From Candidatus Zhuqueibacterota bacterium (GTDB lineage Bacteria > BS750m-G25), in contig JADHWK010000081.1 of NCBI GenBank assembly GCA_016783505.1, positions 1-7,558 of the forward strand: a DNA stretch of 7,558 nt, written 5' to 3'. The notes beneath the pieces are model-generated. The model did no database searches. It was not told where the DNA came from and was given only the letters and a program-made list of their open reading frames with translations. Shown here piece by piece: positions 97-7,331 of the stretch. Numbering within the stretch: the stretch's first letter is position 1; each line of letters opens with the position of its first letter. Position numbers and translations under genes: made by a program.

Positions 97-1296
97 TCAA
101 TACCTTTTAGTGTAATTTTGATGGGCCATTACCTTATATTTAATGTAATCCTCAGGGGCGGTGGCTTTCAGATAAAGATCGTTGGCATCGTTGTATTCTG
201 AACATTTGCTGATATATTCATTAAAAGTATAAGCAGCACCGGCTATGCTGGCTGTGCCCCCGATCACAAACAGCCACCCTCGAATCTTCTTCTCAGCATA
301 CAACTGCCCCCAGCCCGGGAAAAGGGTTGACCTTAAAAAGGCCTTTCCCCGGGTTCTCCCTAAATACTTCAGGTTCACTTTCAGCGGGGTGGTCTTACCA
401 TGCACTATGGTGACTCGTTTTCTATCTTTTCTGTATCCCTCCATCCCTGTATCCAGCCAGTATTCTCCCTGGGCAAGATCCACCTGAAAGGGAATGCTTC
501 CCAGCGGATTTTCCTCCCAGAATACATCGGCTCCCATCGGTTCTCCGCTTATGTCCAAGGTGCCCGTCCCCTCCAGCTCATAGGAGACCGTTTTCACCTT
601 CCCTTCCTCTACCACAACCGAGTCAAGAACATCGGCATAGGTGGGGGCGGATAGTTTCAACAGGTAGGTTGAAGGTCTTATATTCATCAATACCAACGGG
701 GTCGTCCCCCCCGGCTTCCCATCCAATAAAACCCTGGCACCGTCGGGAACCGAGGTCACCTTCAGAGAGCCGGTTCCCTCTTTGATCTTTTCCTCAAGGA
801 CCATTTCTGGTGAAAAATCAGCCATTCGCTGGGCCAGAATCTTCAGCGTATTCTCCATCAGCTCGTATAAAGAACCTTCACACCGCTCATTATAGCTCAC
901 CAATGTTTTCCTGCCCTTTACATCAACCATCTTTACGGTCACCGAATATACAAATTCTTCCTCCCCAATTTCCCCAACAAACACCCGATCAGCCCCTGAA
1001 ATCTTCCCTATCTCCACCAGATCGGCAAGACTTCGACTTACTAATAAACTTTCTTTCCCCTTTTTCTTCAACCATTCCTCCACCTGGGATTTGCCAAAGA
1101 CCCGGAAACCACCCGTTTTTTCTAACTTCTTTCCAAATTCATCGGATAACATATTCATCATGACCCTGGTGAGCATGGAGGATTTCCCCATGGGCTTAAA
1201 ATCTAATACAACACTTCGTAGCTTTGGGGAAGCCTGACCATATAAAAGTTGACCGGAAACAAACAGGACACCAACAAAGAACTCTTTACACTTCAT
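97..1296 (-). CDS. Secreted TolB-like / PEGA-domain / DUF5683-like envelope protein, probably 3'-truncated
   Basis: A 399-residue envelope protein of unknown exact role. From the ATG at 1296 it has a signal peptide (MKCKEFFVGVLFVSGQLLYG, cleavage near 20/21). A CsgG/TolB-N-like domain follows (about 28-165: VVLDF near 29-33, then EIGKISGADRVFVGEIG and VDVKGRK). Two PEGA beta-repeats come next (about 175-242, with VPDGARVLLDG and GTTP; about 244-309, with EPMGADVFW). The C-terminal segment (about 317-399) carries the DUF5683-type RSTLFPGWGQLY motif and one membrane helix (about 340-358). Such proteins are predicted to sit at the periplasmic side of the envelope. The frame extends upstream to a TTG at 1347 and an ATG at 1335, but only the 1296 start puts a normal signal peptide at the N-terminus. 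No clear ribosome-binding site is visible at any of the three. The protein ends at NYTKRY, where relatives as I recall them go on through an Asn-containing turn and another helix, so truncation is suspected. No terminator follows. Confidence 0.82.
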   Translation of the reverse strand: MKCKEFFVGVLFVSGQLLYGQASPKLRSVVLDFKPMGKSSMLTRVMMNMLSDEFGKKLEKTGGFRVFGKSQVEEWLKKKGKESLLVSRSLADLVEIGKISGADRVFVGEIGEEEFVYSVTVKMVDVKGRKTLVSYNERCEGSLYELMENTLKILAQRMADFSPEMVLEEKIKEGTGSLKVTSVPDGARVLLDGKPGGTTPLVLMNIRPSTYLLKLSAPTYADVLDSVVVEEGKVKTVSYELEGTGTLDISGEPMGADVFWEENPLGSIPFQVDLAQGEYWLDTGMEGYRKDRKRVTIVHGKTTPLKVNLKYLGRTRGKAFLRSTLFPGWGQLYAEKKIRGWLFVIGGTASIAGAAYTFNEYISKCSEYNDANDLYLKATAPEDYIKYKVMAHQNYTKRY

Positions 1297-1352
1297 ATCT
1301 TGTATTGAGAACAATATTTCAACAAAAAACCCCATCCAGTTCTTCAAAACCG

Positions 1353-1576: not shown

Positions 1577-1673
1577 GAAAAAAGTTCAAAAATCGGCTTT
1601 TCAGAAATTTTTATGTTGCTCTCCATGCTCGTTGAGGAGCCTATCATCCTCGACAGATTTGTTGGTATCGAAT

Positions 1674-1738
1674 TTCTGGCGGATAACCCGCCACTATCCC
1701 GAAGCTTCGGGATGGCGTATAGGTAACATCCGCCGGGA
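1674..1738. repeat. Palindrome-rich segment containing the 18-bp palindrome, intergenic copy
   Basis: The core ATCCCGAAGCTTCGGGAT (1696-1713) is a perfect 18-bp palindrome. It lies in a 24-bp segment (1692-1715) that recurs exactly at 3152-3175 inside ppiD. Around it, GGCGGAT (1678-1684) pairs with ATCCGCC (1728-1734), and CGCC (1689-1692) with GGCG (1714-1717), so the whole stretch could form one long interrupted hairpin. Alternatively TGGCGG (1677-1682) pairs locally with CCGCCA (1688-1693). The rest of 1577-1770 shows no gene I can support. It may be the remnant of a dispersed repeat. Confidence 0.65.
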
Positions 1739-1770
1739 GCGCATAAAACTATATTCGCATCAAAAAACAC

Positions 1771-1799
1771 TTGTAAACTTCCCATTTTTTCCTTATATT
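1771..1799 (+). promoter_or_regulatory. Sigma-70-type promoter for ppiD
   Basis: -35 TTGTAA (1771-1776), a 17-bp spacer, then -10 TATATT (1794-1799). The start is predicted near 1806, leaving a leader of about 25 nt that contains AGGAG (1815-1819), 10 nt before the first ATG of ppiD. Confidence 0.65.
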
Positions 1800-1829
1800 T
1801 TCAGGTAATATTTTAGGAGTTATCATCCC

Positions 1830-3629
1830 ATGATGAACAAATTGAGAAAGAACACCGCCTTTATCCTCTGGATTTTGCTGTTCGCCTTTATCGGAACCAT
1901 CATCTTCAGTTGGGGAATGGGCGGGTTTAAGAGCAAAGCCAGTAAGGGCATCATCGCGGTTATCAACGGTCTGGAGGTCAAATACGATACCTATATGAAC
2001 AGCATCCAGCGTGAATACGCCCGCATGAGGGACGAACAGGGCGAACTGAGCGATCGGGAGACCCGCCAGATCCGCCAGCGAGTATGGGACGAGATGATCA
2101 ACGAAATCCTGATCGGTCAGGAGGTGAAAAAAGCCGATCTCAAGGCCACCGACGAGGAGATCGTATTCTTCGTCCGAAACAGCCCCCCGGATTTTTTGAT
2201 AAGCAGCGAGGCCTTCCAGACCGATGGCCAGTTTGATTACGAAAAATATCTAAAGGCCCTGGGGGACCCTTCCATTGACTGGACACCCATTGAGGAGTTC
2301 CTGAGACATGAGATCCCCAAAGATAAACTCAGGCGCCGGGTTTTAGCCTCCGTCTTCGCTTCCGATAACGAAGTGAAAGAAAAGTTTATTGAGGATAACC
2401 AAAAGGCCACTGCTTCCTACATCTTTTTTGACCCCAATACCTTTCAAACAGACAGCACCGAAATCTCCGAAGCGGAGATTTTATCCTACTATCGGGACCA
2501 TCAAGAGGATTACCGGGTGCCCGAGAAGCGGAAGATTGATTATGTTCTGTTCCATAATCTTCCCACCCTTGAGGACAGCGCCGAGACGTGGGAGGATGGC
2601 CGTGAACTGGTCGAAAGGGCCCGGGAGGGGGAGGATTTCGCCCTCTTGGTTCAGGACTTTTCACAGGACCGAGCCACGATAAGCCGGGATGGTGACCTGG
2701 GCTATTTCCCCAGGGGCCGCTGGCCGGATGAGTTTGACAAGGCCGTCTTCGGGGCCAAAATCGGTGGGGTAATCGGCCCCTTGAAGACCAATCGGGGGCT
2801 GCATATCGTCAAAATCGAGGATAAGAGGACCATAGACGGCGGCCCGGAGGTAAAAGCCAGCCACATTCTGCTCACCTTCGAGCCCAGCGCTGACACCCGG
2901 GAGGTCGTTCGGGAATCGGCCTATGATTTTGCTGAGGCGGTCAAGGAAGATGATTTTTATGAGACAGCGGAGATATGGGGGTATGAAGTAAGAAATTCGG
3001 ATTTTTTCGCCGCCGGGGGCTTCATTCCCGGGATCGGCAGGAGCGTTAGTGCCTCCCGCTCCATCTTCAACGCTGACCTTGAGGACGTAAGTGAGTCTTT
3101 CCCGATGCTAAACGGCTGGTTCGTCTTCAGGGTGAGTACTATCGAGAAAAGCACTATCCCGAAGCTTCGGGATGGGGTGAGGGATATTATTATGAGGACC
3201 CTGATCCGGCAGAAGAACCTCGTAAAGGCAGGACAGGTCTGCACCGATGTTCGGTCCAAAATGGAGGATGGAACCGATTTTGAGAAGTTGGCAACGGTGG
3301 AATCCTTAGGAATAAAGACCATTGACCGGGAGTTTACCATCGGTAGTTACCTGCCCGGTATCGGCAGGGACCGAAATTTCACCGCTGCTGCTTTCAAACT
3401 GAACCCCGGGGATATTTCATCGCCCGTGGAGGGCATTAAGGGATACTATCTTATCAAATTATTGTCAAAGTCGGCCTTTGATTCCACCGCCTTTGACAAA
3501 GAGAGGGAAAACCTGAAGGATAAAATCTTAAGGCAAAAGCAGCAGACGGCCTATGCCGCCTGGCTGCGGGGTCTTCAAAACCGTGCCAAGATTGAAGACT
3601 ATCGCTATTACTATTTCAGGGATTACTAA
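1830..3629 (+). CDS. ppiD: PpiD/SurA-type membrane-anchored periplasmic peptidyl-prolyl isomerase
   Basis: A 599-residue foldase anchored in the inner membrane and acting on proteins emerging into the periplasm. One membrane helix (about 9-29) follows a basic start (NKLRK). A SurA_N-like chaperone region covers about 38-225, including SEAFQTDGQFDYEKYLKAL. The parvulin domain (about 232-330) holds FSQD (277-280), GDLGYFPRG (288-296) and GPLKTNRGLHIVKI (316-329). A degenerate second parvulin-like domain begins at ASHILL (343-348). The C-terminal region repeats a unit with PGIGR at 400-404 and 509-513, each followed by an AF/IF..L/D segment and a GY/GW-hydrophobic strand. The first domain has DYVLF where active parvulins have SHIL, while the second has SHIL but no GLHI end, so catalytic activity is uncertain and a chaperone role may dominate. 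AGGAG at 1815-1819 supports the first of two adjacent ATGs. Own promoter and terminator, so monocistronic. Codons at 3156-3173 overlap the dispersed palindrome. Confidence 0.92.
   Translation: MMNKLRKNTAFILWILLFAFIGTIIFSWGMGGFKSKASKGIIAVINGLEVKYDTYMNSIQREYARMRDEQGELSDRETRQIRQRVWDEMINEILIGQEVKKADLKATDEEIVFFVRNSPPDFLISSEAFQTDGQFDYEKYLKALGDPSIDWTPIEEFLRHEIPKDKLRRRVLASVFASDNEVKEKFIEDNQKATASYIFFDPNTFQTDSTEISEAEILSYYRDHQEDYRVPEKRKIDYVLFHNLPTLEDSAETWEDGRELVERAREGEDFALLVQDFSQDRATISRDGDLGYFPRGRWPDEFDKAVFGAKIGGVIGPLKTNRGLHIVKIEDKRTIDGGPEVKASHILLTFEPSADTREVVRESAYDFAEAVKEDDFYETAEIWGYEVRNSDFFAAGGFIPGIGRSVSASRSIFNADLEDVSESFPMLNGWFVFRVSTIEKSTIPKLRDGVRDIIMRTLIRQKNLVKAGQVCTDVRSKMEDGTDFEKLATVESLGIKTIDREFTIGSYLPGIGRDRNFTAAAFKLNPGDISSPVEGIKGYYLIKLLSKSAFDSTAFDKERENLKDKILRQKQQTAYAAWLRGLQNRAKIEDYRYYYFRDY
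3152..3175. repeat. Second, in-frame copy of the 24-bp palindromic repeat, inside ppiD
   Basis: Positions 3152-3175 match 1692-1715 exactly, including the 18-bp palindrome (3156-3173). Here it encodes IPKLRD (residues 443-448) just before the C-terminal repeat unit, without breaking the frame. Related proteins often have an IPPLEEVRD-like stretch at this place, so the repeat fits the protein consensus. Confidence 0.8.
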
Positions 3630-3653: not shown

Positions 3654-3691
3654 AAAAAAAACCAGTCCAAAAAAATGGCTGGTTTTTTTTT
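3654..3691. terminator. Bidirectional intrinsic terminator between ppiD and the DUF116 gene
   Basis: CCAG-T-CCA (3662-3669) pairs with TGG-CTGG (3676-3682) around an A6 loop, with one bulged T (3666). The stem is flanked by A8 (3654-3661) and T9 (3683-3691), which can also pair and extend it. It gives a U-tract in both directions, closing ppiD from the left and the DUF116 gene from the right, whose stop codon lies at 3698-3696. Confidence 0.88.
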
Positions 3692-3695
3692 ATGG

Positions 3696-4481
3696 TTATT
3701 TTTTTAAAAAAATCTTAATGGCCTCTTCAATCTCTGAAACATTGGTATAAGTATTTTTACAGGGACCCTCGGGCCTTACGTTGGGGATGGCAATCACAGG
3801 AATTTTGGAAACTACATCCTCGATGCCGGTCACCAGATCACGTTCGCAGGCTACGGCGATGATACCGGTGGGCCGGATTTCAGCGATCTTGACACGGGCC
3901 GCCTCCCCCCCCGAGACCGTGTAGACCTCACAGTCATTTCTCTCAGCCAGCAATAGAATTTCCTGACGGTTCGCCTTCTGGAGACATCGGGGCAGGAGAA
4001 TCATCAGCTTATTCCCCCGGATCCTTCGCCTGGCGGCCCGGATCAAGGCGTTGCTGACCTTGATGAAGGAACTACTAATTCGGTCCCGGGAAATCCCGAA
4101 CCTCCGGCCCAGGTTGATGACGATGGGAACCAAAAAGGTGAGGGAATATTTCTTTTTCCCAAAATAGAAGGCCAGGTCCTTACCGATAATGATGGAGAGA
4201 AGCATCAGGGCAAACCAAATCCCCAGTGCTAGCACAAATCCCAGGATGAGGAGACCCACTACCAACGACAGGTAGGGGTGGATCATGTTCAGTCGGGGGG
4301 TAATCAGCCACCATGCAAATAAGGAAAGCAGCGAAATCAGAACCATGACTATGGTGGCGAAACCCAGGAAAATCCGTTTACCGCTGTCTACATTCTCCTC
4401 AGCCTTTCCGGACCAGTCCAGCCACTCGTCCCCCAGCCGGCGGCCGCCGGGCGGACCCTGCTGCTGACCTTTGTTAGCCAT
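3696..4481 (-). CDS. DUF116-family membrane protein lacking the usual central cysteine cluster
   Basis: A 261-residue protein with a hydrophilic Gly/Gln/Arg-rich N-terminus and two membrane helices (about 37-60 and 70-99). A cytosolic DUF116 domain (about 101-258) follows. Family motifs are clear: LLPRCLQ (162-168), VYTVSGGEAARVKI (186-199), IIAVACERDLVTGI (207-220) and IPNVRPEGPC (232-241), followed by NT (243-244). Cys166, Cys212 and Cys241 lie in the conserved positions. Most DUF116 proteins, as I recall them, have further cysteines (a C..CGxC stretch) between LPxCLQ and the GG motif. Here that stretch is shorter and keeps only Cys184, so any metal site would differ. The biochemical function of DUF116 is not established. 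The ATG at 4481 is chosen over the longer TTG start at 4523 because AAGGAA lies 4 nt upstream and the promoter -10 overlaps the TTG. Monocistronic, convergent with ppiD, divergent from nrdJ. Confidence 0.85.
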   Translation of the reverse strand: MANKGQQQGPPGGRRLGDEWLDWSGKAEENVDSGKRIFLGFATIVMVLISLLSLFAWWLITPRLNMIHPYLSLVVGLLILGFVLALGIWFALMLLSIIIGKDLAFYFGKKKYSLTFLVPIVINLGRRFGISRDRISSSFIKVSNALIRAARRRIRGNKLMILLPRCLQKANRQEILLLAERNDCEVYTVSGGEAARVKIAEIRPTGIIAVACERDLVTGIEDVVSKIPVIAIPNVRPEGPCKNTYTNVSEIEEAIKIFLKK

Positions 4482-4485
4482 ACTA

Positions 4486-4491
4486 TTCCTT
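4486..4491 (-). promoter_or_regulatory. Ribosome-binding site that fixes the DUF116 start
   Basis: AAGGAA on the minus strand (4491-4486) ends 4 nt before the ATG at 4481. No comparable site precedes the upstream TTG at 4523. Confidence 0.7.
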
Positions 4492-4522
4492 ATCCCAACG
4501 TTCCTATTAGCAATACACCCCA

Positions 4523-4551
4523 ATTTAATACATTTTGAGGGGAAATGTCAA
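4523..4551 (-). promoter_or_regulatory. Sigma-70-type promoter for the DUF116 gene
   Basis: On the minus strand, -35 TTGACA (4551-4546), a 17-bp spacer, then -10 TTAAAT (4528-4523). An alternative TATTAA two bases upstream would leave only 15 bp. The start is predicted near 4516, about 35 nt before the ATG. ATCAA-TAAA-TTGAT just upstream of the -35 (about 4560-4573) is a small dyad that might be an operator. Confidence 0.7.
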
Positions 4552-4870: not shown

Positions 4871-7276
4871 ATGGCTCGAAGATCCTCGTCGCAAAAATCT
4901 TCCTCCCTTAACCTTTTTGGCGAACCCCAGGAGGGGGTGTCTTCCCCGTCCCAGACCCGCTTTTTGACCGAGGACGATTTAGAGATTAAGACAGATCCTT
5001 ATCGGGTTATTGAAAAACCCGCCAAGGAAATCATCGTCCCCATCGAACCCGTGCTATCTGATAACGCCCTCCGGGTGCTGGAACGGCGGTATCTCCGAAA
5101 GGATAAGGAAGGAAAGATCGCTGAATCCCCGGCTGAGATGTTCTCCCGGGTGGCCCGGCACATCGCTTCGGCAGATCTAAAATATGACCCCGATACTGAT
5201 GTCAGGAAAACGGAGATTCGTTTTTTCAACCTCATGGCCTCCCTGGATTTTCTCCCCAATTCCCCTACCCTGATGAATGCCGGTCGCGAGCTGGGTCAGC
5301 TCTCCGCTTGTTTCGTCCTCCCGATTGAAGATTCCATGGATCAAATTTTTGATACGGTAAAGAACACCGCCCTTATCCACAAGAGCGGTGGGGGAACGGG
5401 ATTTTCCTTCTCCCGCTTACGTCCCAAGAACTCAGTCGTTCGATCAACGGCGGGCACTGCTTCAGGTCCCGTTTCCTTTATGAGCGTGTTCAATTCCGCC
5501 ACCGAGACCGTCAAGCAGGGGGGTACCCGTCGGGGGGCCAACATGGGTGTATTAAGGATGGACCATCCGGACATCCTGGAGTTTATCGGCTGCAAGCATA
5601 GCGAACGGGATCTTAACAATTTTAACATATCGGTAGCGGTGACCGACGAGTTCATGGAGGCAGTCAAGAGCGGCGGTACTTATTGGCTGTTTGATCCCCA
5701 CACCCAGAAACGGGTCAGCCGGATGATAGCCAGGGAGGTGTTCGATCAAATCGTGGAACAGGCATGGCAAAATGGGGAACCGGGGATCATCTTCCTGGAT
5801 AAAGTCAACGCCCATAATCCCACCCCCAGTTTAGGCCTAATTGAGTCCACAAATCCCTGTGGCGAACAGCCACTCTTACCCTACGAATCCTGTAACCTGG
5901 GCTCCATCAATCTATCCACGATGGTTTCCAATGGCAAATTAGATTGGGATAAGCTGGAGGAAACGGTTTGCACCGCTGTCCATTTTCTGGACAACGTCAT
6001 TGACCTTAACCAGTATCCCCTGCCCCAGATCCGGGAGATGACCTTTGGAAACCGCAAGATCGGCCTCGGGGTAATGGGATTTGCCGACATGTTGGTGCAG
6101 TTGGGCATCCATTATGATTCGGAGGAGGGGTTGAAGACCGCCGAGGGTGTGATGGAATTCATCCACGCCTGTGCGCGAAAGAAATCGGATGAATTGGCCC
6201 TGAAGCGGGGTCCATTCCCCAACTGCCCGGACAGCATCTTCACCACCCCCACCCGCAACGCTACCGTAACCACCATCGCCCCCACCGGCACCTTGTCCAT
6301 GATCGCTGAAACCTCTGGGGGAATCGAGCCCCATTTCTCCTTAGTTTATATCAAAAAGGTCATGGATAATGAGGAACTGCTGTATGTGAACAGGGTTTTT
6401 GAAGAGGTGGCCCGAAAGGAGGGATTTTACAATCCTGAAATGATGAAAAGGGTGTCTGCCAGGGGCTCCCTGCAGAATATTGATGGGATTCCGGACCGTG
6501 TCAAAGAAATTTTTCGCACCTCCCACGACATTACCCCGGAGTGGCACGTCCGTATGCAGGCCGCCTTCCAGAAATACACTGATAATGCCGTTTCCAAGAC
6601 TATTAATTTCCCCCACTCCGCTACCAAGGATGATGTCCATCAGGCCTACCTTTTGGCCTATGAGCTGGGATGCAAGGGGTTGACCGTCTACCGGGATGGC
6701 AGCAGGGAGGAACAGGTTCTGAACGTGGGCTCCCAGATAAAAGAGGGACGGCTGGCTAATGGGGAAAAACTCCATCCCCGCAATCGTCCCCCCATAACCA
6801 GCGGAATAACCGAGAGAATTCGCACCGGTGAGGGTAATTTATACATTACGATCAATGAGGACGACTTTGGCCTCTGTGAGGTGTTCGCTTCCATCGGCAA
6901 GGCCGGGGGCAACGCCGCCGCCCAATCGGAGGCCATCAGCCGACTTATCTCGTTGGCCATGCGCTCGGGTATCAACACCAACGAAATTATCGAAGAGCTG
7001 AAGGGCATCTCCGGCCCCAATCCGGTGTGGGACTTGGGCGAGCTTATACTTTCCGCCCCCGATGCCATCGGAAAAGCCCTGGAACGGTATCTGACCCGGA
7101 TGGAGCGGATGAATGAATTGGATAAGGAAGATCAAGGTGAGAGAAAGACCAGCTTTATCGAGGAGAACTTAGAAGTCATCCCCCGGGGTGACGTCTGCCC
7201 CAAGTGCAACGGCCACATGGATATGATCGAGGGCTGTGCCACCTGTCGTTCCTGCGGTTTTTCTAAGTGTGGTTAG
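4871..7276 (+). CDS. nrdJ: Coenzyme B12-dependent (class II) ribonucleotide reductase
   Basis: An 801-residue cytosolic enzyme that reduces ribonucleotides to deoxyribonucleotides using adenosylcobalamin to make the active thiyl radical. It supplies DNA precursors with or without oxygen. The N-terminal RNR region (about 55-130) lacks an ATP-cone. SAC (145-147) gives the redox Cys147. HKSGGGTG (170-177) follows. NPCGEQ (328-333) gives Asn328, the radical Cys330 and Glu332, and SCNLGSINLS gives the partner Cys341. The 11-residue spacing from Cys330 to Cys341 matches Thermotoga maritima NrdJ (C322/C333). APTGTLS (470-476) is the conserved substrate phosphate-binding loop. A TSCPD domain spans about 640-735. 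The cysteine-rich tail (C776, C779, C789, C792, C795, C800) ends in SKCG and probably recycles the active-site disulfide. All key residues are present and the length suits long NrdJ proteins. The ATG at 4871 has no clear ribosome-binding site, but conservation begins soon after it. Transcribed alone from the 4791-4819 promoter, with a terminator 25 nt past the stop. Confidence 0.97.
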   Translation: MARRSSSQKSSSLNLFGEPQEGVSSPSQTRFLTEDDLEIKTDPYRVIEKPAKEIIVPIEPVLSDNALRVLERRYLRKDKEGKIAESPAEMFSRVARHIASADLKYDPDTDVRKTEIRFFNLMASLDFLPNSPTLMNAGRELGQLSACFVLPIEDSMDQIFDTVKNTALIHKSGGGTGFSFSRLRPKNSVVRSTAGTASGPVSFMSVFNSATETVKQGGTRRGANMGVLRMDHPDILEFIGCKHSERDLNNFNISVAVTDEFMEAVKSGGTYWLFDPHTQKRVSRMIAREVFDQIVEQAWQNGEPGIIFLDKVNAHNPTPSLGLIESTNPCGEQPLLPYESCNLGSINLSTMVSNGKLDWDKLEETVCTAVHFLDNVIDLNQYPLPQIREMTFGNRKIGLGVMGFADMLVQLGIHYDSEEGLKTAEGVMEFIHACARKKSDELALKRGPFPNCPDSIFTTPTRNATVTTIAPTGTLSMIAETSGGIEPHFSLVYIKKVMDNEELLYVNRVFEEVARKEGFYNPEMMKRVSARGSLQNIDGIPDRVKEIFRTSHDITPEWHVRMQAAFQKYTDNAVSKTINFPHSATKDDVHQAYLLAYELGCKGLTVYRDGSREEQVLNVGSQIKEGRLANGEKLHPRNRPPITSGITERIRTGEGNLYITINEDDFGLCEVFASIGKAGGNAAAQSEAISRLISLAMRSGINTNEIIEELKGISGPNPVWDLGELILSAPDAIGKALERYLTRMERMNELDKEDQGERKTSFIEENLEVIPRGDVCPKCNGHMDMIEGCATCRSCGFSKCG

Positions 7277-7301: not shown

Positions 7302-7331
7302 AACCAGCATCATTTCGGTGCTGGTTTTTTT
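7302..7331 (+). terminator. Intrinsic terminator of nrdJ
   Basis: AACCAGCA (7302-7309) pairs exactly with TGCTGGTT (7319-7326). A T-G wobble and a C-G pair extend it inward to a 5-nt loop (7312-7316). It is followed by a T-run to 7331. Confidence 0.9.

Follow-up and report, generated by a model that had tools for sequence, protein, structure and literature searches.

The 7,558-bp contig of Candidatus Zhuqueibacterota analysed here, referred to as the window, raises the question of how one and the same short palindrome came to stand both between genes and, in frame, inside an apparently functional protein gene. The exact 24-mer CACTATCCCGAAGCTTCGGGATGG was found twice, at 1692-1715 and 3152-3175, and holds the 18-bp palindrome ATCCCGAAGCTTCGGGAT at 1696-1713 and 3156-3173, in agreement with the first-pass annotation, which had reported one copy between genes and one in ppiD. 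The alignable match between the two copies extends over 27 bp, with 26 of the 27 positions identical, while shuffling of the window gave an expectation of zero occurrences of the 18-mer even with three mismatches. Copy 1 lies between genes, where inverted repeats abound. The features of the window are as follows.

97-1347, minus strand: PEGA/DUF5683-like protein, on one flank of ppiD
1622-1741, plus strand: larger dispersed repeat holding copy 1, with 79-80% identity to C66:35525-35647
1631-1654, plus strand: first hairpin of the larger repeat, GTTGAGGA / TCCTCGAC, from the window sequence
1678-1734, plus strand: second hairpin of the larger repeat, GGCGGAT (1678-1684) / ATCCGCC (1728-1734), with copy 1 in its loop
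1697-1712, no strand assigned: copy 1 of a 16-bp palindromic unit, TCCCGAAGCTTCGGGA, its ends taken from covariation and kept terminal bases
1830-3629, plus strand: ppiD-like periplasmic peptidyl-prolyl isomerase, 599 amino acids, intact, with SurA_N and rotamase domains
3157-3172, no strand assigned: copy 2 of the unit, in frame in ppiD, where the 18-mer codes for IPKLRD
3696-4523, minus strand: DUF116 protein, on the other flank of ppiD
4871-7276: ribonucleotide reductase with a TSCPD domain (801-amino-acid open reading frame)

Ordinary terminator-like hairpins with T runs were also present after ppiD (3655-3699) and after the ribonucleotide reductase gene (7303-7330).

The number of copies was determined in the host genome, a draft of 2.51 Mb in 89 contigs that is 60% complete, using as control the reversed pattern, which has equal composition and is likewise palindromic. 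These analyses revealed six exact 18-mers, 67 occurrences of ATCCCGANNNNTCGGGAT and 216 places within three mismatches, compared to none in any of the three classes for the control, and thus the possibility that the genome holds only the two copies of the window fails. Within 757 kb of host stretches, 120 copies of the 16-bp form were located (reversed control, 0), of which 100 are intergenic, although intergenic DNA makes up 15% of these stretches; the densities are not used as genome estimates because known copies guided part of the choice of stretches, which biases them upward. Copies inside genes are rare, and ppiD is the sole convincing interior, in-frame case among the 144 copies of this genome that were examined. 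The core of the family is CCCGANNNNTCGGG. These counts bear out the proposal that a dispersed palindromic family can occupy a gene without disrupting it. In the G000 stretches L144-L163, the k-mer table was dominated by long repeats, probably within a protein gene (CCACATAGGCGTAACTGCCGCTGACGGCAACG).

The boundaries of the repeat were set by covariation. The pair at the edge of a 16-bp unit, YCCCGANNNNTCGGGR (consensus YCCCGA-N4-TCGGGR), was complementary in 117 of 122 copies, compared to 84 expected, as T-A in 97 and as C-G in 20, whereas one step further out, the pair that makes up the full 18-mer was complementary in 62 copies (57 expected, p = 0.16). The 24-mer and 18-mer are real, as the first-pass annotation had them, but the conserved unit is 16 bp long, and the outer A/T pair of the 18-mer consists mostly of host bases, since covariation ends at the 16-bp edge. 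A purine stands to the left of the unit and a pyrimidine to the right in about 90% of the 122 copies, and the unit folds as a 16-nt RNA with -8.2 kcal/mol. The flanks carry no tag of REP type: among 244 flanks GTAG occurred twice (3.2 expected) and CGTC four times (3.6 expected), while GGAG occurred 13 times (2.4 expected), apparently through repeated GGAGT contexts. The CACT..GG context of both window copies also surrounds a third copy, at C66:35553, which suggests that the 24-bp form is a subfamily. Coincidental protein motifs were not counted as members of the family, among them PKLxPDGSGG (L151, L082) and a site in L114 that by eye looks like a conserved phosphatase motif.

Searches in other genomes showed that the exact 18-mer is present in at least 117 stretches of a species-representative collection; among the matches listed, the record titles name Flavobacterium, Marinilabilia and other Bacteroidota, Marinimicrobia, Calditrichota, KSB1, Omnitrophota and a few others. 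The distribution is patchy, the degenerate form being found in 56 of 247 Bacteroidota and 32 of 149 Marinimicrobia genomes sampled, with its reversed control in one genome of each sample, and the highest copy count seen was that of the genome of the window. The family was missing from all 20 other bacterial genomes searched, and viral contigs, examined for carriage by phages, gave no match to the exact 18-mer or its reversal. A search of the open-access literature found no paper on the motif itself. A tandem array with a period of about 68 bp and ATCCCGACACGTCGGGAT in every unit was observed at C14:42459-43376 of G215.

The setting of copy 1 gives a first indication of how the unit is accommodated. 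Partial relatives of the larger repeat (1622-1741) were found on C81, C49, C15, C28 and C22, and sequence related to its first hairpin occurs in L199, L202 and L261. The second hairpin recurs in L202 and L262 with the short loops GGCGGATGACAACATCCACC and GGTGGATGGCAACATCCGCC instead of the unit, and in L216 AAAAATT stands at the position of the 18-mer. As part of the replacement reading developed below, and at the same strength, copy 1 is probably a 16-bp unit grafted into the loop of this larger dispersed element. The AGAACC..GGTTCT repeats of the host behave alike, their tip being either a short loop (ATCTAAAGAT, CTCTTTAGAG) or the unit. For 15 of the 111 exact copies from elsewhere, the perfect hairpin goes on for at least 4 bp more (1.3 expected); this location is a preference and not a rule, because most copies lie off perfect tips.

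What the unit does to its target was examined by joining the flanks of 277 distinct copies and seeking unit-less relatives of the joined sequence in the DNA collection. Such a relative was found for 27 copies: 20 of them show 4-14 native bases at the position of the 18-mer, six look like plain insertions and one has a single base. When the tRNA and Flavobacterium pairs described below were added and duplicates removed, a set of 21 pairs was obtained in which the native stretch exchanged had a median of 6 nt and a range of 2-17. The terminal native base was retained beside the unit on the left in 16 and on the right in 19 of the 21 pairs (joint p about 1e-4), whereas the second bases inward matched only at chance. 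No target duplication was seen at the compared sites. For pairs of paralogues the direction of change is an assumption; the only firm cases are the tRNA copies, a transposase gene and the Flavobacterium site.

These cases define the exchange at single-base level. In L087, a true tRNA-Arg gene, recognised by ARAGORN and Rfam, lies beside tandem copies in which the anticodon arm ACAGCCTTCTAAGCTGT has become exactly ATCCCGAAGCTTCGGGAT. In the host genome, tRNA-Glu copies have ATCCCGATACTTCGGGA for the arm GCCGGCCTCTCACGCCGG, and in tRNA-Asp copies the unit spans the region from the anticodon loop to the variable loop. A Y1 transposase gene of one Neomarinimicrobiota genome encodes SWSRLVGRYGG where one paralogue has SWQRGYGG and another SWSRLVGSYG, GCAACGTGG of 9 nt having been exchanged in frame for GTCCCGACTCGTCGGGAG of 18 nt. 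At an orthologous intergenic site of Flavobacterium, unit-less relatives read TCCTGCA-AGGTTTTGAAAACCT-TGCAGGA or CCTGCA-AGGTTTTC-AAAACCTTGTAGG, while L041 has TCCTGCA-ATCCCGAAGCTTCGGGAT-TGCAGGA compared to the former, and the F. pectinovorum genome has CCTGCA-ATCCCGAAGCTTCGGGAC-AAAACCTTGTAGG compared to CCTGCA-AGGTTTTC in the latter; between L041 and F. pectinovorum the left junction is identical and the right junctions differ. At a second orthologous site (L078), one lineage has a hairpin module of 38-42 bp, TGTCATTTCG[18-mer]CGAAATGA, that others lack, in an alignment too poor to place its ends.

Several related observations were made alongside these comparisons. The last 400 bases of L087, as well as L119, contain tRNA-Arg-like copies repeated in tandem every 132 bp, each with the 18-mer in place of its anticodon arm. 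At positions 8361, 10521, 11000 and 11706 of L162 (G000 C85), several tRNA-Leu-like 3' halves contain a unit, or two, close to the variable arm. In L237, L240 and L242, from the Neomarinimicrobiota genomes G022 and G023, hairpin-derived sequence lies at or beside the conserved Y1 motif WQRGYG in three genes, and the three Y1 genes with an altered WQRGYG region read SWSRLVGSYG, SWSRLVGRYG and FPARLCHSGGEAWQ*. Within one Flavobacterium genome (G481, contigs C2, C3, C5 and C6), a 38-42 bp hairpin of the form TGTCATTTCG[18-mer]CGAAATGACA is apparently dispersed itself.

The copy in ppiD was compared with 30 Marinimicrobia orthologues, all of at most 34% identity. Copy 2 falls at residues 443-448, and the protein of the window is one residue longer than the orthologues (+1, not +6), so that 16 or 18 bp are unlikely to have been cleanly inserted. 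None of the 30 shares the IPKLRD residues or their codons, contrary to the refuting case set by the first-pass annotation, and the closest one, whose genome (G042) lacks the degenerate motif, has VRPLED, encoded by GTT CGT CCA CTC GAG GAT. The native ppiD sequence is not readable from the orthologues because the nearest ones found, which are Marinimicrobia proteins, are only 34% identical; the alignment would nevertheless fit a swap of the unit for about 13-15 native bases. That this copy alone arose by chance or in place from a conserved IPPLEEVRD-like stretch, outside the family, has in its favour the conserved pattern (Y/I)-x-P-L-E-E-V of that stretch, certain codons of which could come near the motif. 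This origin is nonetheless highly improbable, given that 18 of 18 bases are identical to the family, that the CACT..GG context is held in common with two other copies, that the residues and codons occur in no orthologue and that the protein is one residue longer.

Taken together, the data make it reasonably probable that the unit represents a minimal family of 16-bp hairpins that spreads by short-patch exchange for native DNA in Bacteroidota, Marinimicrobia and some other phyla. Judging from the sequence comparisons, the unit would travel as single-stranded hairpin DNA, the donor presumably being copied or ligated at the replication fork and swapped for a short native stretch, preferably the tip or arm of another hairpin. 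The exchange could be a relative of template switching that replaces a short patch, its likelihood perhaps being raised by Y1 (RAYT-type) transposases acting on hairpins, and the ppiD copy would be a rare tolerated replacement in which the frame was kept. Against this reading stand the following points: about six of the 27 compared sites resemble plain insertions, most copies lie off perfect hairpin tips, the ancestral state of paralogous pairs is an assumption, a sharp 16-bp unit is not predicted by template switching alone, a single Y1 gene of the host has the unit at its flanks, and three carrier genomes lack a Y1 match. A stronger form, in which a dedicated, so far undescribed hairpin-swapping activity in several phyla exchanges a 16-nt cassette for native stretches lying between a purine and a pyrimidine, and so rewrites the tips of hairpins, arms of tRNAs and coding DNA among them, is a tentative and rather doubtful proposal.

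Ordinary transposition and in-situ correction of palindromes both fit poorly, because the unit is discrete and sharp-ended, the loss of target is variable and there is no duplication. A rival reading takes the unit for a REP-like element that a dedicated Y1 (RAYT) transposase cuts out and inserts in the form of a single-stranded hairpin. In accordance with this, Y1_Tnp genes were found in 10 of 13 genomes tested, and one of them, of 151 amino acids (C80:2162-2617), has ATCCCGAAACTTCGGGAT on either side, at the apex of its AGAACCG..CGGTTCT repeats. The AGAACC stem, however, persists with or without the unit as its tip (ATCTAAAGAT, TCACTTTTAGTG), and the unit therefore looks like a passenger there; in the host genome it flanks only this Y1 gene, and next to the 19 others inspected stand different hairpins, none of these genes having the unit directly on both sides. 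Insertion of the IS200 type, moreover, leaves target DNA undeleted, the GTAG/CGTC tag is absent from the flanks of the unit, and each of the carriers G032, G033 and G035 has one copy of the unit and lacks a Y1 match, which leaves a dedicated Y1 system unlikely. Correction of imperfect inverted repeats by template switching at each locus is established in microbes and able to make perfect stems (PMC8794818, PMC7202029), and the variable loops and the covariation of the outer stem pair are in line with it, yet it yields locus-specific arms, whereas CCCGA..TCGGG is common to hundreds of loci and palindromes of the reversed motif were not found in the same DNA. The common arm sequence thus disfavours correction as the sole cause, an origin we regard as very improbable, while such correction may take part in the upkeep of pairing.

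A selected protein-binding site, bidirectional terminator or RNA stabiliser, reached by repeated convergence, would accord with the stability of the hairpin as RNA and with Aquimarina and similar loci, where A and T tracts flank the unit in a terminator-like manner. Convergent and tandem spacers are not favoured, however (0.08 and 0.87 compared to 0.07 and 0.85 at random), the unit is found in pseudo-tRNAs, in a transposase gene and in ppiD, and convergence does not explain replacement of an anticodon arm, so that we judge selection of this kind improbable. The terminator was rejected as a general cause, since the orientation classes equal those of random intergenic positions and most flanks lack T tracts, which some copies of Flavobacteriia have. 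No support was found for the protein or nucleoid recognition site put forward in the first-pass annotation, and a host function is unnecessary to account for the unit, for which short-patch exchange remains our preferred explanation.

The unit belongs among the dispersed palindromic repeats, and its interest lies mainly in the evidence for replacement. The palindromic elements of Rickettsia, with which the first-pass annotation had compared it, are longer insertions that add tens of residues to proteins. They resemble the unit in being palindromes tolerated in frame in genes (PMC3733652). The comparison holds as an analogy only, since those elements insert, whereas ppiD gained one residue by replacement, with no added block, and 2-17 nt were swapped for 16 bp. 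The small dispersed repeats of cyanobacteria, reportedly described by Elhai et al. in 2008 as very small and mobile without a known transposase, are of similarly small size but differ in sequence and hosts. Short-patch double illegitimate recombination replaces a short native stretch with DNA copied from another site, the sequence carried being arbitrary. Template-switch mutations (PMC8794818) likewise replace a short native stretch with DNA copied from elsewhere, of arbitrary sequence and not as one recurring discrete unit.

REPs carry a GTAG or CGTC tag and are located near gene 3' ends (PMC3733652). REP/REPIN sequences with their RAYTs (PMC3733652, PMC3116915, PMC6006769) share with the family short hairpins, imperfect or perfect, high copy number, a mostly intergenic location, patchiness across phyla and occasional presence in genes; high copy number and intergenic location are evident from the counts given above (100 of 120 copies in 15% of the DNA; 216 places). 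The family differs in its 16-bp perfect unit, the missing tag, the replacement of native DNA and the lack of a clear dedicated RAYT, and it has no bias to positions downstream of genes, the orientation classes matching random intergenic positions and not the 3' ends and convergent or unidirectional spacers of GTAG/CGTC REPs. HIP1 of cyanobacteria, an 8-bp element linked to methyltransferases (PMC4390886), is also a short perfect palindrome overrepresented across species; the unit, in contrast, has a variable loop, and its core does not match that of HIP1 (GCGATCGC). In Volvox, one short palindrome may have been inserted within another (PMC2670323), and the double-hairpin elements of Allomyces lack target duplications (PMC2800124). 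These organelle elements, together with the sponge RHE (PMC2800124), are short selfish palindromes, nested, without target duplication in Allomyces and occasionally in genes, and the family has the same nesting and absence of duplication in its nested tips and replaced loops; it differs in its bacterial chromosomes, shorter unit and hairpin-arm replacement documented at base resolution. They are the best behavioural parallel, common ancestry not being claimed.

The family would rank among the smallest bacterial dispersed repeats with a definable unit, and the evidence at base resolution is of replacement, not insertion. It would offer a handle on how palindromes without a transposase spread, a question open for REPs, Rickettsia palindromic elements and organelle hairpin elements alike, and would show how a single step can rewrite the tip of a hairpin, the arm of a tRNA or a short segment of a protein.
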